Of a stretch of 41,262 nt of DNA, positions 6,541-33,286 are shown piece by piece (position 1 is the first letter of the stretch; each line of letters starts with the position of its first letter). The stretch lies in NCBI GenBank assembly GCA_025353195.1, contig JANXRC010000112.1, positions 1 to 41,262 of the forward strand, in the 5' to 3' direction. This DNA is from Rhodocyclaceae bacterium (GTDB lineage: Bacteria > Pseudomonadota > Gammaproteobacteria > Burkholderiales > Rhodocyclaceae). The translations under genes were made by a program, and so were the position numbers. The notes beneath the pieces were generated by a model. That model had not been told where the DNA came from and did no database searches. It saw only the letters and a list, made by a program, of their open reading frames with translations.

Positions 6541-7209
6541 TTAGCACAGCAGTTCGGCCAGTCGGGCGACATCGGCCGGGGCGCTGTCCCGGGCGATGGC
6601 CGCCAGCGGGATGCCGGCAACAAAGCGCGACAGGGTTTCCAGCGTGGCATTCAGTGCAACCGCCGAATCCGGCGTTTCATTGACGACAATCGCCGTCACA
6701 CCAGCGCCGACTCTTGCCAGAGCCTCCAGTGCCGTCAGCGTGTGGCTCAGGCTGCCCAGATAGCTGCCGGCCACCAGCACGCAGGGGAGGCCACTGGCGG
6801 CGATCCAGTCGCGCACCGTGTGCCGCTCGTCGAGCGGAGCCATGACGCCGCCGACGCCTTCAATCAGCAGCGGGCGGTCCGGCGCGGCGATGGCCCTGCG
6901 CGAGAAATCGACGAGTTCAGCGAAATCGATCCGGCGTCCTTCCCGTGCCGCCGCCATGTCCGGCGACAGCGGCGCGGCGAGACGCCAGGGCGCGATGGCA
7001 TCGAGTTCCGCGATGCTGACCTCGCGTCCCAGCGCCGCCAGCAATGCCCCGGCGTCGCTCGCCTGCGGCAGGAGCGGATCGAAGCCGGACAGCACCGGCT
7101 TGATCGCCGCCGGCCGCCGGCCCTCGCCACGCCAGTGCCGCAGCAGCGCGCAGGCCAGCCAGGTCTTGCCGATGTCGGTACCCGTGCCGGTGATAAAATT
7201 TGCGCCCAT
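6541..7209 (-). CDS. bioD: Dethiobiotin synthase
   Basis: 222 aa; FITGTGTDIGKTWLACALL P-loop, IEGVGGVMAPL; adjacent to bioA/bioF. Confidence 0.95.
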   Translation of the reverse strand: MGANFITGTGTDIGKTWLACALLRHWRGEGRRPAAIKPVLSGFDPLLPQASDAGALLAALGREVSIAELDAIAPWRLAAPLSPDMAAAREGRRIDFAELVDFSRRAIAAPDRPLLIEGVGGVMAPLDERHTVRDWIAASGLPCVLVAGSYLGSLSHTLTALEALARVGAGVTAIVVNETPDSAVALNATLETLSRFVAGIPLAAIARDSAPADVARLAELLC

Positions 7210-11032: not shown

Positions 11033-12352
11033 TCAGCCGGGCGATGCGCTCGCTTCGGCCAGCGGCAGTTCGACCCAGAAGGTGCTGCCAATGCCATCGA
11101 CGGACTCGAAGCCGATTCGGCCTCTCATTCTCTCGATCAGCCGCTTCGACATCACGAGTCCGAGGCCGACGCCCTGGATCGCCCCCTCTTCCAGACCCAG
11201 ACGCGAAAATGGATCGAACAGTTCATGCTGTTTTTCTCTCGCGACCCCGACCCCGGTATCGGCGACGAGGATGCGCAGATAGGCCGTGCCGGCTGGCTGG
11301 CACCAGATCCTCACGGTGCCGCCGGCACGATTGAACTTGACGGCATTGGATAGCAGATTCAGCAGCACCTCCTTGACCAGAACCCGGTCCGCCCACACCG
11401 CCCGGTCCGCGCCGACGCCGCAGTCATTGACCAGCCCGACGCTGTTTTTTTGCGCTTCCAGCTCGATGATCGACAGACAGGGCGCGATGACTTGTTCCGT
11501 AACGACGGGCTCGATGTTCAGCGACAGTTCGCCCGTCTCGGCGCGGCTCATCTCCAGCACCTGGGTCAGCAGATCCCCCAGATGCAGCCCCGCCGCGAGG
11601 ATGTTCCTGGCGCCTTTCTGCTGTTCATCGCTCAGCGGATGCTCCTTGTCGCCGCCAAGCCGTTCGGCAAAGCCGAGGATCGCATCCAGCGGCGCGCGAA
11701 ACTCGTGGCTCATCGACTGCAGAAACACGGCCTTGGCCCGGCTCGATTGCTCTGCTGCGTGCTGCGCCTGGCGCAGATGCGCCTTGACCCGCGCCCGGTC
11801 GCGTGCCACGACAACCCCCGCCAGGACCACCATCCCGGCGGATCCCAGCATCGAAGTCAGCATCACTCCGGGAGCGTCCGACGCGGCAATGAAACTCACG
11901 GGAACCCAGCCCATCGTCGTCGACAAATAGAGGAGCACCAACGCCGCCGCCAGCGCCACGCCCGTGACCAGGAGGATGGCGGCATTGCCGAAGGTGCTCT
12001 GCATGGCAAGGTTGGCGAGAAATCCCGGCAGTGCGATCGAGATGATGCCGCCGGTCAGGAAGGCCCATACCCCGATGATCAGAACGCCGCCGAAGTTGGC
12101 CACCACCAGGCCGAGGGTAATGTCTCCCGTGGCACGAATCAGGATCGCGCCGAGCACCGGAGTCAGAATGCCGGCCGCGAACAGGGCATATTCCACCGCC
12201 GGGAGATGCCCGCGCACCACGACGACGCCCAACAGCATCAGCGAAACGACCAGCGAGATAGTCAGCAGGGACTTGGCGATGCCCCTGTGACGCGTGTTCT
12301 TGCGCGGATCATCACGGCCTTCGGGCGGCACAAACCAATCGATCACATCCAT
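11033..12352 (-). CDS. Membrane sensor histidine kinase (HisKA + HATPase_c), no adjacent response regulator
   Basis: 439 aa; several TM segments, H-box SMSHEFRAPLDAILGFAE, N-box NLLSNAVKFN, G boxes DTGVGV and GVGLGLVMSKRL. Confidence 0.9.
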   Translation of the reverse strand: MDVIDWFVPPEGRDDPRKNTRHRGIAKSLLTISLVVSLMLLGVVVVRGHLPAVEYALFAAGILTPVLGAILIRATGDITLGLVVANFGGVLIIGVWAFLTGGIISIALPGFLANLAMQSTFGNAAILLVTGVALAAALVLLYLSTTMGWVPVSFIAASDAPGVMLTSMLGSAGMVVLAGVVVARDRARVKAHLRQAQHAAEQSSRAKAVFLQSMSHEFRAPLDAILGFAERLGGDKEHPLSDEQQKGARNILAAGLHLGDLLTQVLEMSRAETGELSLNIEPVVTEQVIAPCLSIIELEAQKNSVGLVNDCGVGADRAVWADRVLVKEVLLNLLSNAVKFNRAGGTVRIWCQPAGTAYLRILVADTGVGVAREKQHELFDPFSRLGLEEGAIQGVGLGLVMSKRLIERMRGRIGFESVDGIGSTFWVELPLAEASASPG

Positions 12353-12527
12353 GTAGCAATCCCCCTCGCGGCCCCGACAAGGCCGTCAATATCCATCGGT
12401 GAAGCCCATTTTATTGACGGTCCAATCCGCCACATAGGACATATGACCGCCCATGCGATCGATTCTCGGCAAGGAAGACCCTATGCACAATAGGTGATTC
12501 GGTGCATACGAAACCGGCAGATGCGGC

Positions 12528-12813
12528 GCCGTATCACCAGCGCCGACTCCTGGGTTTCCCTCTCCGCGGAGATGCCGGGACTCGCCCCGGCGGGCGAGAT
12601 ACTTTCTTGTGATGCGACAAGAAAGTACCCAAAGAAGCGCACCCCCGCCGCCTCGGCCCTGCGGGCTGCCCTCGCTGCGGAAGGCCCGCCGGGCCGGTCG
12701 CTAAACTCGCTGCGCTCAGACAACGCGACCGGACTTCCCCCGGCGTACCTTCCTCGCTCGGCGGGTCAGAGGGGGAATGAAAGTCGTCGCGCGTGTGAGG
12801 CCGTGGCAAGAAT
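12528..12813 (+). repeat. Left arm of ~290-bp inverted repeat flanking the HIRAN gene
   Basis: GCCGTATCACCAGCGCCGACTCCTGGGT...GAGATGCCGGGACTCGCCCCGGCGGGCGAG...CGCTGCGGAAGGCCCGCCGGGCCGGTCGCTAAACT...CCTTCCTCGCTCGGCGGG...GGCCGTGGCAAGAAT reads almost identically in the reverse complement of 13812-14111. Confidence 0.93.
12600..12627. repeat. Hairpin inside the left repeat arm (11-bp perfect stem, 6-nt loop)
   Basis: TACTTTCTTGT-gatgcg-ACAAGAAAGTA. Confidence 0.9.
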
Positions 12814-12904
12814 GAACGCGACGCTGGCCTTATTGCTCCACTTACGCATGGGCCCTTTCATGACGGTGATATAGTCCAATCAATTCAATTCCAGGAGCAA
12901 ACAA

Positions 12905-13753
12905 ATGCACTGGATCATCGTTATCGGCATCATCGCCTTTCTCTTCTATGCACTGACGCGCAAGAGTCCGGGCACCAAGCCTTCCGGCAAATCAAGCTCT
13001 GGTGGCAAATCAGCGGGGCAGGGCACCAAGTTCCTGCCACCGATCCCCGAGGGCTTTCAAATCTTCAATGGACGGTTGGCCGTCGCAGGTGTCGAACACA
13101 GGCGCGATGATGCCATCCGCTTCGCCGGAGCTTCCGACCAGACGCTTGCGCTGGAACGCGAATCCGACAACACGCACGATGCGAACGCCATCAAGATCAT
13201 TGGCGTGTCACGCGGCACGCGCTGCTTTATCGGATACGTCCCCAAAGAAGTCGCCGAACAGATCGTCGGCAGCGGCCTTGTGGATGCCGTTCAACCGCGC
13301 TTGGAACGCATTTGGCGCACCGACAACGGCTTCGTCGATGTCACCTTCCAGATCGTCGGCCCGAAGGACAAGAGAGCACAATACGAAGACTTCCTGAACA
13401 ACAAGCCTGCCGACGCTTGGCAGAAGGAATGTTTGAAGTTCTTTGGGTTGCCAGTCTCCAAGGGACTCACCCTTGCACAGGCCGCGCAGATCATCGCGGT
13501 ACACCGCAAGAAACTGGAAATCGAAGACAAGACCCAACTCGACGAGTGGGATGCCTACGAGGAAATCTGCGAACAGTTCGACGAAGCCGATTTCCGAGAG
13601 GAGTTCGAATTAAAAAAGGTAAGTGCCAAGGCGCTTAAAGAAGCACTGGAGGCGTTGAAGCAGGAAGGTGACACGATGCGTTCGCTAGCCGGTGACATCG
13701 ACAAAGTTGTTGATAAGGTCATTGCTTTGAAGCCCGAGTTGGAGAAGAAATAG
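12905..13753 (+). CDS. Membrane-anchored HIRAN-domain protein
   Basis: 282 aa; N-terminal TM WIIVIGIIAFLFYAL; HIRAN-like VAGVEHRRDDAIRFAGASDQTLALERESDNTHDANAIKIIG...RCFIGYVPKEVAEQI; acidic/coiled C-terminus. RBS-like ccaggagcaaacaaATG. Confidence 0.8.
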   Translation: MHWIIVIGIIAFLFYALTRKSPGTKPSGKSSSGGKSAGQGTKFLPPIPEGFQIFNGRLAVAGVEHRRDDAIRFAGASDQTLALERESDNTHDANAIKIIGVSRGTRCFIGYVPKEVAEQIVGSGLVDAVQPRLERIWRTDNGFVDVTFQIVGPKDKRAQYEDFLNNKPADAWQKECLKFFGLPVSKGLTLAQAAQIIAVHRKKLEIEDKTQLDEWDAYEEICEQFDEADFREEFELKKVSAKALKEALEALKQEGDTMRSLAGDIDKVVDKVIALKPELEKK

Positions 13754-13811
13754 TGGCGGCGGATTAGCTGGCGGTCACACGCGATAAAAAGTCAGCTTTT
13801 GAATTGAATTG

Positions 13812-14111
13812 ATTCTTGCCACGGCCTGACACGCGCGACGGCTTTCATTCCCCTCTGTCCCGCCGAGCGAGGAAGGTTCGCCGGGGGTCGTCCGGTCGCG
13901 TTGTCCGACGACGGCCGTTTTTTGGCCGGCTAGTTTAGCGACCGGCCCGGCGGGCCTTCCGCAGCGAGGGTAGCCCGAAGGGCTGGGGCGGCGGGGCACG
14001 CTTCTTTGGGTACTTTCTTGTCGTGCAACAAGAAAGTACCTCGCCCGCCGGGGCGAGTCCCGGCATCTCCGTTGAGGAAGAAGACCCAGGAGTCGGCGCT
14101 AGCGATACGGC
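13812..14111 (-). repeat. Right arm of the inverted repeat flanking the HIRAN gene
   Basis: Reverse complement matches 12528-12813, with a small internal replacement (an arm-specific GGCCGTTTTTTGGCC-containing stretch near 13910-13935). Confidence 0.93.
14009..14040. repeat. Hairpin inside the right repeat arm (13-bp perfect stem, 6-nt loop)
   Basis: GGTACTTTCTTGT-cgtgca-ACAAGAAAGTACC; same position as 12600-12627 in the other arm. Confidence 0.9.
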
Positions 14112-14179
14112 ACCCCGCGCCGGTACAATGCACCCCTTGAGATGCGGCCGCCGCCGCCAGCACCCGGAAAGACCGTGTC

Positions 14180-16333
14180 ATGACCCGCAAGATTCTCCTT
14201 ACCGCCGCCCTGCCCTATGCCAACGGCGCGATTCACCTCGGCCATCTGGTCGAATACATCCAGACCGATATCTGGACCCGCTTCCAGAAGATGCGCGGCC
14301 ATGAATGCTGGTTCGTCTGCGCCGACGACACCCATGGCACGCCGATCATGCTGCGTGCGGAAAAGGAAGGCATCACGCCGGAACAGTTGATCGAGCGCGT
14401 GCACGCCGAACATTCCCGCGATTTCGCCGGTTTCCATGTCGCCTTCGACAATTACTACACCACCCATTCGGACGAAACACGCCACTACTCCGAAGACATT
14501 TTCACCAAGCTCAAGGCCGCCGGCCTGATCGAAATCCGCTCGATCGAGCAGTACTACGATCCGGTCAAGCAGATGTTCCTGCCGGACCGCTTCATCAAGG
14601 GCGAGTGCCCGAAGTGCGGGACCAAGGACCAGTACGGCGATGCCTGCGAATCCTGCGGCGCAGCCTACGCGCCGACCGACCTGAAGAATCCCTACTCGGC
14701 GGTATCGGGTGCGCAGCCGGTACTGAAGTCGTCCGACCACTATTTCTTCAAGCTCTCCGACCCGCGCTGCCAGGACTTCCTGCGGCAGTGGACGCAGCAG
14801 GAAGAGCGGCTGCAACCGGAGGCCGCCAACAAGCTGCAGGAATGGCTGGGCGCGCCCGGCGAGAATAAGCTCACCGACTGGGACATCTCGCGCGACGCGC
14901 CCTACTTCGGCTTCGAGATTCCCGGCGCGCCGGGAAAATTCTTCTACGTCTGGCTCGACGCGCCGATCGGTTACATGGGTTCGTTCAAGAACTTCTGCGA
15001 CAGGAAGGGGCTCGATTTCGACGAGTTCTGGGGCAAGGATTCGAAGGCCGAGCTGTATCACTTCATCGGCAAGGACATCCTCTACTTCCATGCCCTGTTC
15101 TGGCCGGCGGAACTGGCGCATGCCGGCTACCGGACGCCGACCAAGGTCTTCGCCCACGGCTTCCTGACCGTCGACGGCGCCAAGATGTCGAAGTCGCGCG
15201 GCACCTTCATCACCGCCGAGAGCTACCTGACGCAGGGGCTCAATCCGGAATGGCTGCGCTACTACTTCGCCGCCAAGCTCAACGGCAGCATGGAAGACAT
15301 CGACCTCAACCTCGAGGACTTCACCCAGCGCGTGAATTCCGACCTGATCGGCAAGTACATCAACATCGCCAGCCGCGCGGCGGGATTCATTGCAAAGCGT
15401 TTTGACGGCAAGTTGCAGCGGGAGCACGTCATCGCCCGATTCAAGGCGGAATTGCCGGGATTGATGGAGGCTGCCGATGAAATCGCCGGGTATTACGAGG
15501 GCCGTGATACGGCGCGCGCCCTGCGCCGTGTCATGGCGCTAGCCGACCAGATCAATCAGTACGTGGACAGGAACCAGCCCTGGGTACTGGCCAAGCAGGA
15601 GGGACAGGACGCCAAGCTGCACGAGGTCTGCACGCTGCTGATCAATGCCTTCCGCCTGCTAACCATCTACCTCAAGCCGGTGCTGCCCAAGCTGGCGCAA
15701 CGCGCCGAGGAGTTCCTCAACGTCGCCCCGTTGCATTGGGCGGATGCCGGCCATCTGCTGCCGATCAGCCACCCGATCAACCCCTACGAACATCTGATGC
15801 AGCGCATCGACGCGAAGCAGATCGACGCACTGATCGCCGCCAACCGCGAATCGTTGGAGCCCACCGCCGTAGCGCCGGCGCCGTCCCCGGGGATACCGCT
15901 TCGCGTAACTCCTGAGCCGCACTCGCCGCAACGTCACGCCCAGCACCAGCAGGCCACGGAGGACAAGGTGCAGGCACAGACCAGCCCCGTGGAACCCGCT
16001 ATCTCGATCGACGACTTCAGCAAGGTCGACCTGCGCATCGCCCGCATCGCCGACGCGCAGCACGTCGAAGGCGCCGACAAGCTGATCCGCCTCACACTGG
16101 ATCTCGGCGAGGGTGACACGCGCAATGTCTTCGCCGGCATCAAGTCAGCCTACGATCCGGCACAGCTGGTCGGGCGGCTCACGGTTATGGTGGCCAACCT
16201 CGCGCCGCGCAAGATGAAGTTCGGCCTGAGCGAGGGCATGGTGCTGGCCGCGTCGGACACCGACGGCAAGTCGCCCGGTCTGTTTCTGCTTTCGCCCGAC
16301 AGCGGCGCGCAGCCGGGCATGCGCGTGAAGTAA
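14180..16333 (+). CDS. metG: Methionyl-tRNA synthetase
   Basis: 717 aa; [36 protein letters not shown] zinc site, [10 protein letters not shown] (KMSKS), C-terminal tRNA-binding domain [12 protein letters not shown]...[15 protein letters not shown]. Confidence 0.98.
15875..15911 (-). repeat. Small dispersed repeat, copy inside metG
   Basis: Reverse complement GAGTTACGCGAAGCGGTATCCCCGGGGACGGCGCCGG matches bioF 8902-8938 at 35/37 positions. Confidence 0.88.
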
Positions 16334-21388: not shown

Positions 21389-21448
21389 GCGCTGATGGCG
21401 GCTAGCCGCGAATCGCTGAAGCCAATCGCCGTGTCACCAGCGCCGACT
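21389..21448 (+). repeat. Intergenic sequence related to metG 15827-15886 / the dispersed repeat
   Basis: GCGCTGATGGCGGCTAGCCGCGAATCGCTGAAGCCAATCGCCGTGTCACCAGCGCCGACT; 45/60 identical by hand count to metG GCACTGATCGCCGCCAACCGCGAATCGTTGGAGCCCACCGCCGTAGCGCCGGCGCCGTCC. Confidence 0.65.
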
Positions 21449-33059: not shown

Positions 33060-33286
33060 GGGCAGAGACGAAGCTGCCTGGATGATGGGCACGGGTGATC
33101 TCGGCAGCGGCCTGCTGGCTGCTGCCGAATGCGCCCCGGGCTGGAGATGGATCACGGTCGGGCGGGCAGGGCGAACCCGGCTGCCGGTCGAATCGCCGTC
33201 CCGCCGGCGCCGACTGTTTGCCCGCGGGACGAATCGCCGGATTCCTGACGCACCCCCTAAAATAGCAGTAGGCAGAGAAGGGTCGA

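Follow-up and report, generated by a model that had tools for sequence, protein, structure and literature searches.

Structured inverted arms around exchangeable genes suggest a family of transposase-less cassettes in Sulfuritalea

The HIRAN-domain gene upstream of metG in the 41,262-nucleotide stretch of Rhodocyclaceae DNA analysed here (contig JANXRC010000112.1, assembly GCA_025353195.1; hereafter the window) lies between two inverted arms that recur, paired around different genes, in the genus Sulfuritalea (Rhodocyclales), of which the source genome is a member. The arms enclose diverse cargo of low GC content; one site can hold different cargo in different species and one cargo can occur at different sites, orthologous sites can be empty, target-site duplications are absent, and a signal of the site is found in the outer part of the arm only. 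The comparison suggests that Sulfuritalea exchange genes among themselves by replacing the content of such arm pairs. For a genus-wide family of transposase-less cassettes, in which cargo is replaced by host homologous recombination between arms and DNA probably enters by transformation, we judge the case to be evenly balanced. All comparisons were made between species, and mostly between MAGs.

The left arm (12528-12813, + strand) and the right arm (13812-14111, - strand) of the window cassette form an inverted repeat; the match spans the entire 286-base query at 85% identity (E = 1.1e-91). The initial annotation had described nearly identical inverted arms of ~290 bp; the inverted arrangement holds, but "nearly identical" overstates the match. 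From the outside inwards, each arm carries an outer motif (CGCCGTATCACCAGCGCCGACT, found by pattern search at 12527-12548, +, and again at 14091-14112, -), a centre palindrome (GCCGGGACTCGCCCCGGC at 12574-12591, +; 14047-14064, -, from the sequence and the arm alignment), a hairpin and a deep inner block (12643-12774, +; 13850-13996, -, both from the arm alignment). The centre palindrome is a near-invariant core in 28 arms, and in the left arm it marks the border between a site-specific spacer outside and the inner arm inside. Repeat analysis placed the TACTTTCTTGT..ACAAGAAAGTA hairpin at 12600-12629 (+) and 14009-14040 (-), in agreement with the earlier statement that both arms share one strong hairpin. 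As single strands, the window arms fold only moderately more stably than shuffled sequences (z = -2.4 and -2.1), and an Rfam search of the region gave no match at E <= 1.

Also noted earlier was an inverted 14-mer inside the arms, AATCAATTCAATTC. The copy upstream of the HIRAN gene (12878-12891, +) and its partner (13801-13814, -) are indeed an exact inverted match, but the partner runs into the right arm at its inner end. The 14-mer was not seen in other aligned arms and is therefore private to the window copy. The cassette is flanked by a sensor histidine-kinase-like gene (11033-12352, -), which some but not all relatives have here, and by metG (14180-16333, +; ORF call and metG search of relatives). 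The right outer motif occupies the place of a solo motif just upstream of metG in cassette-free relatives.

Between the arms lies a single gene (12905-13753, +) and no transposase, as had been described. Its 282-residue product consists of an N-terminal transmembrane segment, a HIRAN domain and a C-terminal domain. The earlier reading of a membrane-anchored HIRAN protein was borne out by the N-terminal hydrophobic segment and by a Pfam profile search, in which PF08797 matched residues 79-120 with 28.3 bits, above its gathering threshold of 24.7. HIRAN structures of HLTF matched only at E values of 0.78-0.94. A single-sequence AlphaFold model of the protein was of unusable quality (mean pLDDT 43). 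Cargo GC is 54.9%, versus 62.3% in the flanks. The protein is rare, missing from nearly all relatives, and a search of plasmids for it found none. Its C-terminal ~115 residues recur in proteins of three genomes (G012, G187 and G415) that share an N-terminal hydrophobic segment, have no HIRAN domain and do not lie between arms. PADLOC assigned the protein to a candidate family, PDC-M03B, at 27 bits; from this weak match and the company of the cassette family, a role in defence can be guessed.

Arm-sequence matches among database records came nearly all from Sulfuritalea or from Rhodocyclales/Rhodocyclaceae. A search of 40 relatives for the arms revealed convergent pairs 1-4 kb apart in most of 24 same-genus genomes, and relatives of the window genome have no fewer than 32 distinct cassettes bounded by these arms. 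Each of 20 arm pairs that we read enclosed different genes. These copies give the proposed check on the arms a positive outcome, and the description of the locus as a passenger cassette is supported, with the same arms pairing around different cargo at many loci and in many species and with orthologous sites empty. Cargo GC ranged from 47 to 57% and was lower than that of the flanks in 32 of 32 cassettes. Most of the genomes compared are MAGs, in which repeats can mis-assemble; G002, however, is a complete single-contig genome with three cassettes of its own, and at several sites both flanks agree despite the MAG assemblies. No account of these cassettes was found in the open-access literature.

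The cargo is diverse and often defence-like. It includes HNH and Mrr nucleases, XRE proteins with an outer-membrane barrel, AAA/DUF4435 proteins, DUF5131 with a three-Cys-motif partner (TcmP), and HARE-HTH, DUF4145, DUF3644-like and PIN proteins. PADLOC recognised AriAB (PARIS; 459 bits), PDC-M41A (366) and HEC-08 (230) and, with lower scores, type IV restriction (95 bits) and a TIR effector (34), in a set of proteins picked as likely candidates and so not an unbiased rate of defence genes. A Pfam scan of 21 cargo proteins found no transposase. In the window's own genome (G000), a ParA-like ATPase gene on contig C7 (L003, 786-1798) ends beside a full arm where the contig stops, and probably marks a further cassette or arm there. 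Some arms carry another dispersed repeat, of the CGTCATTCC-GCGAA..GCGGGAATCCAG type, between the motif and the centre palindrome (outer spacers of L060, L074, L077 and others).

A search of the 31 genus members for metG failed only in G003, which gave a weak match, and the DNA upstream of the gene was read in most. Arms and cargo occupy this position in eight species: the window species with its HIRAN gene, and G001, G004, G005, G007, G012, G014 and G045, with common cargo in G004 and G005. Two further contigs stop inside an arm. Reading the same site in relatives, as had been proposed, also uncovered cassette-free forms: a single outer motif at the right-end position (G013, G020, G022, G042) or, in G006 and G011, an inverted pair of ~110 bp without cargo. 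The metG site is a probable hotspot of cargo exchange, which the initial annotation had overlooked, as it had the genome-wide occurrence of the motif at the arm ends. In G005 the site (L148, 4917-8115) holds nested arm pairs, as if one cassette had entered another.

For a second site, which lies where two genes converge, 25 species were compared. The site has no insert in G002, holds a solo motif in G000 and G022 and a cargo-free inverted pair in G001, G011, G014 and G020, and carries full cassettes in at least nine species; mutual similarity of nine of its cargos is limited to one 35-residue stretch. A third site behaves similarly to these two. Conversely, related cargo appears at different places. 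The metG cargo of G012 and a cargo on another contig of G007 are 90% identical in DNA over 681 bp; XRE-containing cargo is shared by G024 and G023, with arms present and no common flanks; and an AbrB/PIN pair that occupies the metG site in G005, G007 and G023 also lies beside an arm on contig C261 of G000. On that contig (L004, 710-1685) the AbrB-like antitoxin and PIN toxin genes sit between an outer motif and a partial arm.

The arms themselves are mosaic. Inner parts of the left and right arms of one cassette are more alike than those of re-paired arms (0.90 vs 0.85, p = 2e-4), yet the own partner was the best match in only 7 of 20 cases; arms thus behave as units, but as mosaic ones. When species are compared, spacers adjoining the outer motif on its inner side resemble each other more if they come from one site than if they come from different sites (p = 0.0004-0.01). 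The hairpin shows a weaker within-site likeness (p = 0.004-0.011), whereas in these same arms the similarity of the deep inner block is independent of site (p = 0.97); these permutation tests ignore phylogeny, and that inner block is their only internal control. Since the outer spacer is tied to the site and the deep inner block is not, the outer arm belongs to the site while the inner arm and cargo do not. A signal of this kind would be expected from crossovers inside the arms, and not from the movement of a whole element.

Under the exchange reading that we favour, a cassette would comprise one to several horizontally acquired genes between two structured inverted arms of ~270-300 bp, with the arms serving as portable homology. 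Host homologous recombination between the arms of incoming and resident cassettes would replace the cargo at a limited set of sites, and the outer arm ends would stay with the chromosomal site. Incoming DNA would probably arrive by natural transformation, with the motif at the outer ends as a putative uptake signal. We infer, in other words, the exchanger, the route of entry, the role of the motif and the first seeding of a site; homologous exchange does not account for how arms first reach a site that had none.

The initial annotation had offered mobilisation in trans or by recombination. Recombination is the better fit, and transposition mobilised in trans fits less well. In the latter case the cassette would be a non-autonomous transposon of the mobile-insertion-cassette (MIC) kind, its arms being terminal inverted repeats and its transposase encoded elsewhere. 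Passenger genes between inverted repeats without a transposase are what MICs and related passenger elements look like, and the same cargo at different loci, the sites empty in relatives and the nested arm pairs at metG in G005 would all be accommodated. No target-site duplication was found, however, in 18 cassettes (mean 0.78 vs 0.71 in shuffled sequences, p = 0.40), and the scanned cargo proteins include no transposase. The same fixed sites are occupied repeatedly in many species, outer and inner arm differ in their tie to the site, and inner arm blocks are only 75-99% alike even within one cassette. The Sulfuritalea arms, at ~290 bp and structured, also differ from IS-type ends. A transposon of this kind is conceivable but, in our estimation, unlikely.

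A second alternative would have a site-specific recombinase, of the host or of an element, acting on arms folded into single-strand hairpins, in the manner of integrons, or inserting at the centre of cargo-free mini-pairs (motif-spacer-palindrome-spacer-motif) used as landing pads. Arm structure is conserved with compensatory changes. In the consensus arm structure 98.3% of cells are paired, as against 34-52% in slid controls, which keep the relatedness of the arms, and seven pairs have two-sided changes, as against 3.7 in shuffles that ignore it. At the base of the hairpin, 14 arms have a C-G pair and the other 14 a G-C pair. Mini-pairs occur at the same sites as cassettes, and at their centre is an 18-mer of the same type as the arm centre palindrome; the locus signal fades inside that palindrome, and in one genome of another genus (G217) the arms begin there. 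Cassettes share with those of integrons a small, promiscuous cargo and structured repeats resembling recombination sites. Unlike integron cassettes, which have one attC each, they carry an inverted pair; the centre palindrome is inverted between the two arms, not direct. No integrase was linked to any cassette read, and the cassettes form no arrays. We regard a dedicated recombinase as improbable.

The arms could also be an ordinary dispersed intergenic repeat that flanks genes by chance, or their pairing an artefact of assembly. Arm-like DNA does range widely: a sample of 300 Burkholderiales genomes contained 28 that have it (18 of 135 genera), and many of these sequences are short, cargo-free inverted pairs. 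Inverted pairs with hairpins at the same sites recall REP/BIME and MITE-like repeats; differently from those, the arms pair around cargo and 61% of the outer-motif copies sampled lie inside genes. Chance pairing is contradicted by orientation, since 73 adjacent arm pairs comprised 63 +-, 2 ++ and 8 --, as well as by the low GC of all 32 cargos, the likeness of partner arms and the three cassettes of the complete genome. A further case comes from G217, of the same family and another genus, where 216-bp arms that are 97% identical surround cargo. Pairing clearly extends to many other loci than the HIRAN gene, and this explanation has very little probability left. Least credible of all is an invertible, phase-variable segment at 12814-13811, raised in the initial annotation and not upheld here: inverted repeats do flank a gene with its own leader, but no invertase or other recombinase lies nearby, the HIRAN gene is the only one between the arms and sits wholly inside with its leader, and the genes of other cassettes occur in either orientation with no promoter-switch anatomy.

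The ends of the G217 arms lack the outer motif. The motif is therefore not essential to a cassette, and arms range more widely than their association with it. A search of phage records for arms found none, and plasmids yielded one 94-bp piece, in Comamonas, whose neighbours are ABC-transporter genes and where the annotation shows no cargo pair. Similar-looking ClpP-like secreted cargo, compared by eye, is present in cassettes of two genera of the family (L273, 4062-5051, in G278; L067, 1839-2825, in G002).

Over their outermost 22-26 bp, the arms carry a genome-wide motif, TC-GCCGTNNCGCCAGCGCCGACT-YT, which was followed by pattern searches and in a 400-kb sample of G002. The window contains six copies where 0.02 are expected, with solo copies (CGCCGTNNCGCCAGCGCCGACT) at 6691-6712, 21427-21448 and 33194-33215, all on the + strand. 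Of 25 Sulfuritalea genomes, 23 have 467-826 copies each; control patterns gave at most 16 matches, and 16 other families are at background level. The 400-kb sample held 83 copies, on both strands, and no control match. Of these, 51 (61%) lie in ORFs, versus 89% of the sequence being coding, and they show a strong reading-frame bias (antisense phase 2, 22 of 32; sense phase 0, 12 of 19). Cargo totalling 46.6 kb contains 2 copies where 9.7 are expected. The NN positions read AT in 19 of 29 copies on arms versus 7 of 83 (p = 4e-9), which indicates that arm motifs share descent with the arms. Two other readings of the motif were set aside: the outer 26-mer as a terminal inverted repeat was dropped, as it belongs to a genome-wide motif found mostly inside genes, and a replication-polar motif was considered unlikely because both strands are mixed in the sampled stretches.

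From its sequence properties, the outer motif looks like a DNA uptake sequence, being abundant, mostly within genes, frame-biased and depleted in cargo, and a role in uptake is suggested by these properties. Uptake sequences of Neisseriaceae and Pasteurellaceae show orientation and reading-frame bias (PMC2346458), are missing from recently acquired genes and act as terminators when in inverted pairs (PMC2397512). Like them, the Sulfuritalea motif occurs in hundreds of copies on both strands, with frame and orientation bias in genes, forms inverted pairs and is rare in recently acquired DNA, here the cargo. It differs in being longer (~22-26 bp with an NN gap), in its density of ~200 per Mb and in its occurrence in Rhodocyclales. 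The uptake system of Neisseriaceae probably originated inside the family itself (PMC3630211), and no uptake motif was found described for Rhodocyclales in the open-access literature. Of 31 genomes, 30 have ComEC-type genes; such proteins also occur in E. coli and other controls and in non-specific transformers, so their presence is permissive only. The motif need not be an uptake sequence, but its likeness to one makes exchange via natural transformation plausible. It is possibly a more surprising finding than the cassettes. If it is a true uptake sequence, specific DNA uptake would no longer be confined to the two families with an established system, and it would be linked directly with the exchange of gene cassettes.

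More tentatively, we propose that transformation-linked exchange is at work, the uptake-like motif and the structured inverted arms together making accessory, largely defence, genes interchangeable at fixed sites with neither transposase nor integrase, like an integron whose machinery is the competence and recombination of the host. In Neisseria, minimal mobile elements are alternative genes between conserved flanks that are exchanged by transformation, with the flanking genes as the homology. The Sulfuritalea sites resemble them in holding different cargo by strain or species between conserved flanking genes, in having no mobility genes and in lying in a genome rich in an uptake-like motif; unlike them, the Sulfuritalea cassette brings its own inverted arms, and does so at many sites. 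The fixed sites with a rotating stock of defence genes also recall the P2/P4 hotspots of antiviral genes, which lie in prophages and satellites, whereas the Sulfuritalea sites are chromosomal, intergenic and between arms, with no phage genes (PMC9122126). The cassettes bear on how orphan accessory and defence genes move without a mobility gene: the carrier can be read from the sequence, presumed exchange sites have been located across about 25 species, and the genome-wide motif offers a testable route of entry.

Two observations concern the motif itself. In most species it stands shortly upstream of a TACAAT box before metG (window 14091-14112, for example), and it may also affect metG expression. 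Two genomes are motif-poor, G021 with 230 copies and G016 with 95; in G016, of the same genus, an arm match is absent and the 95 motif copies are all that is found, a natural case for joint loss.
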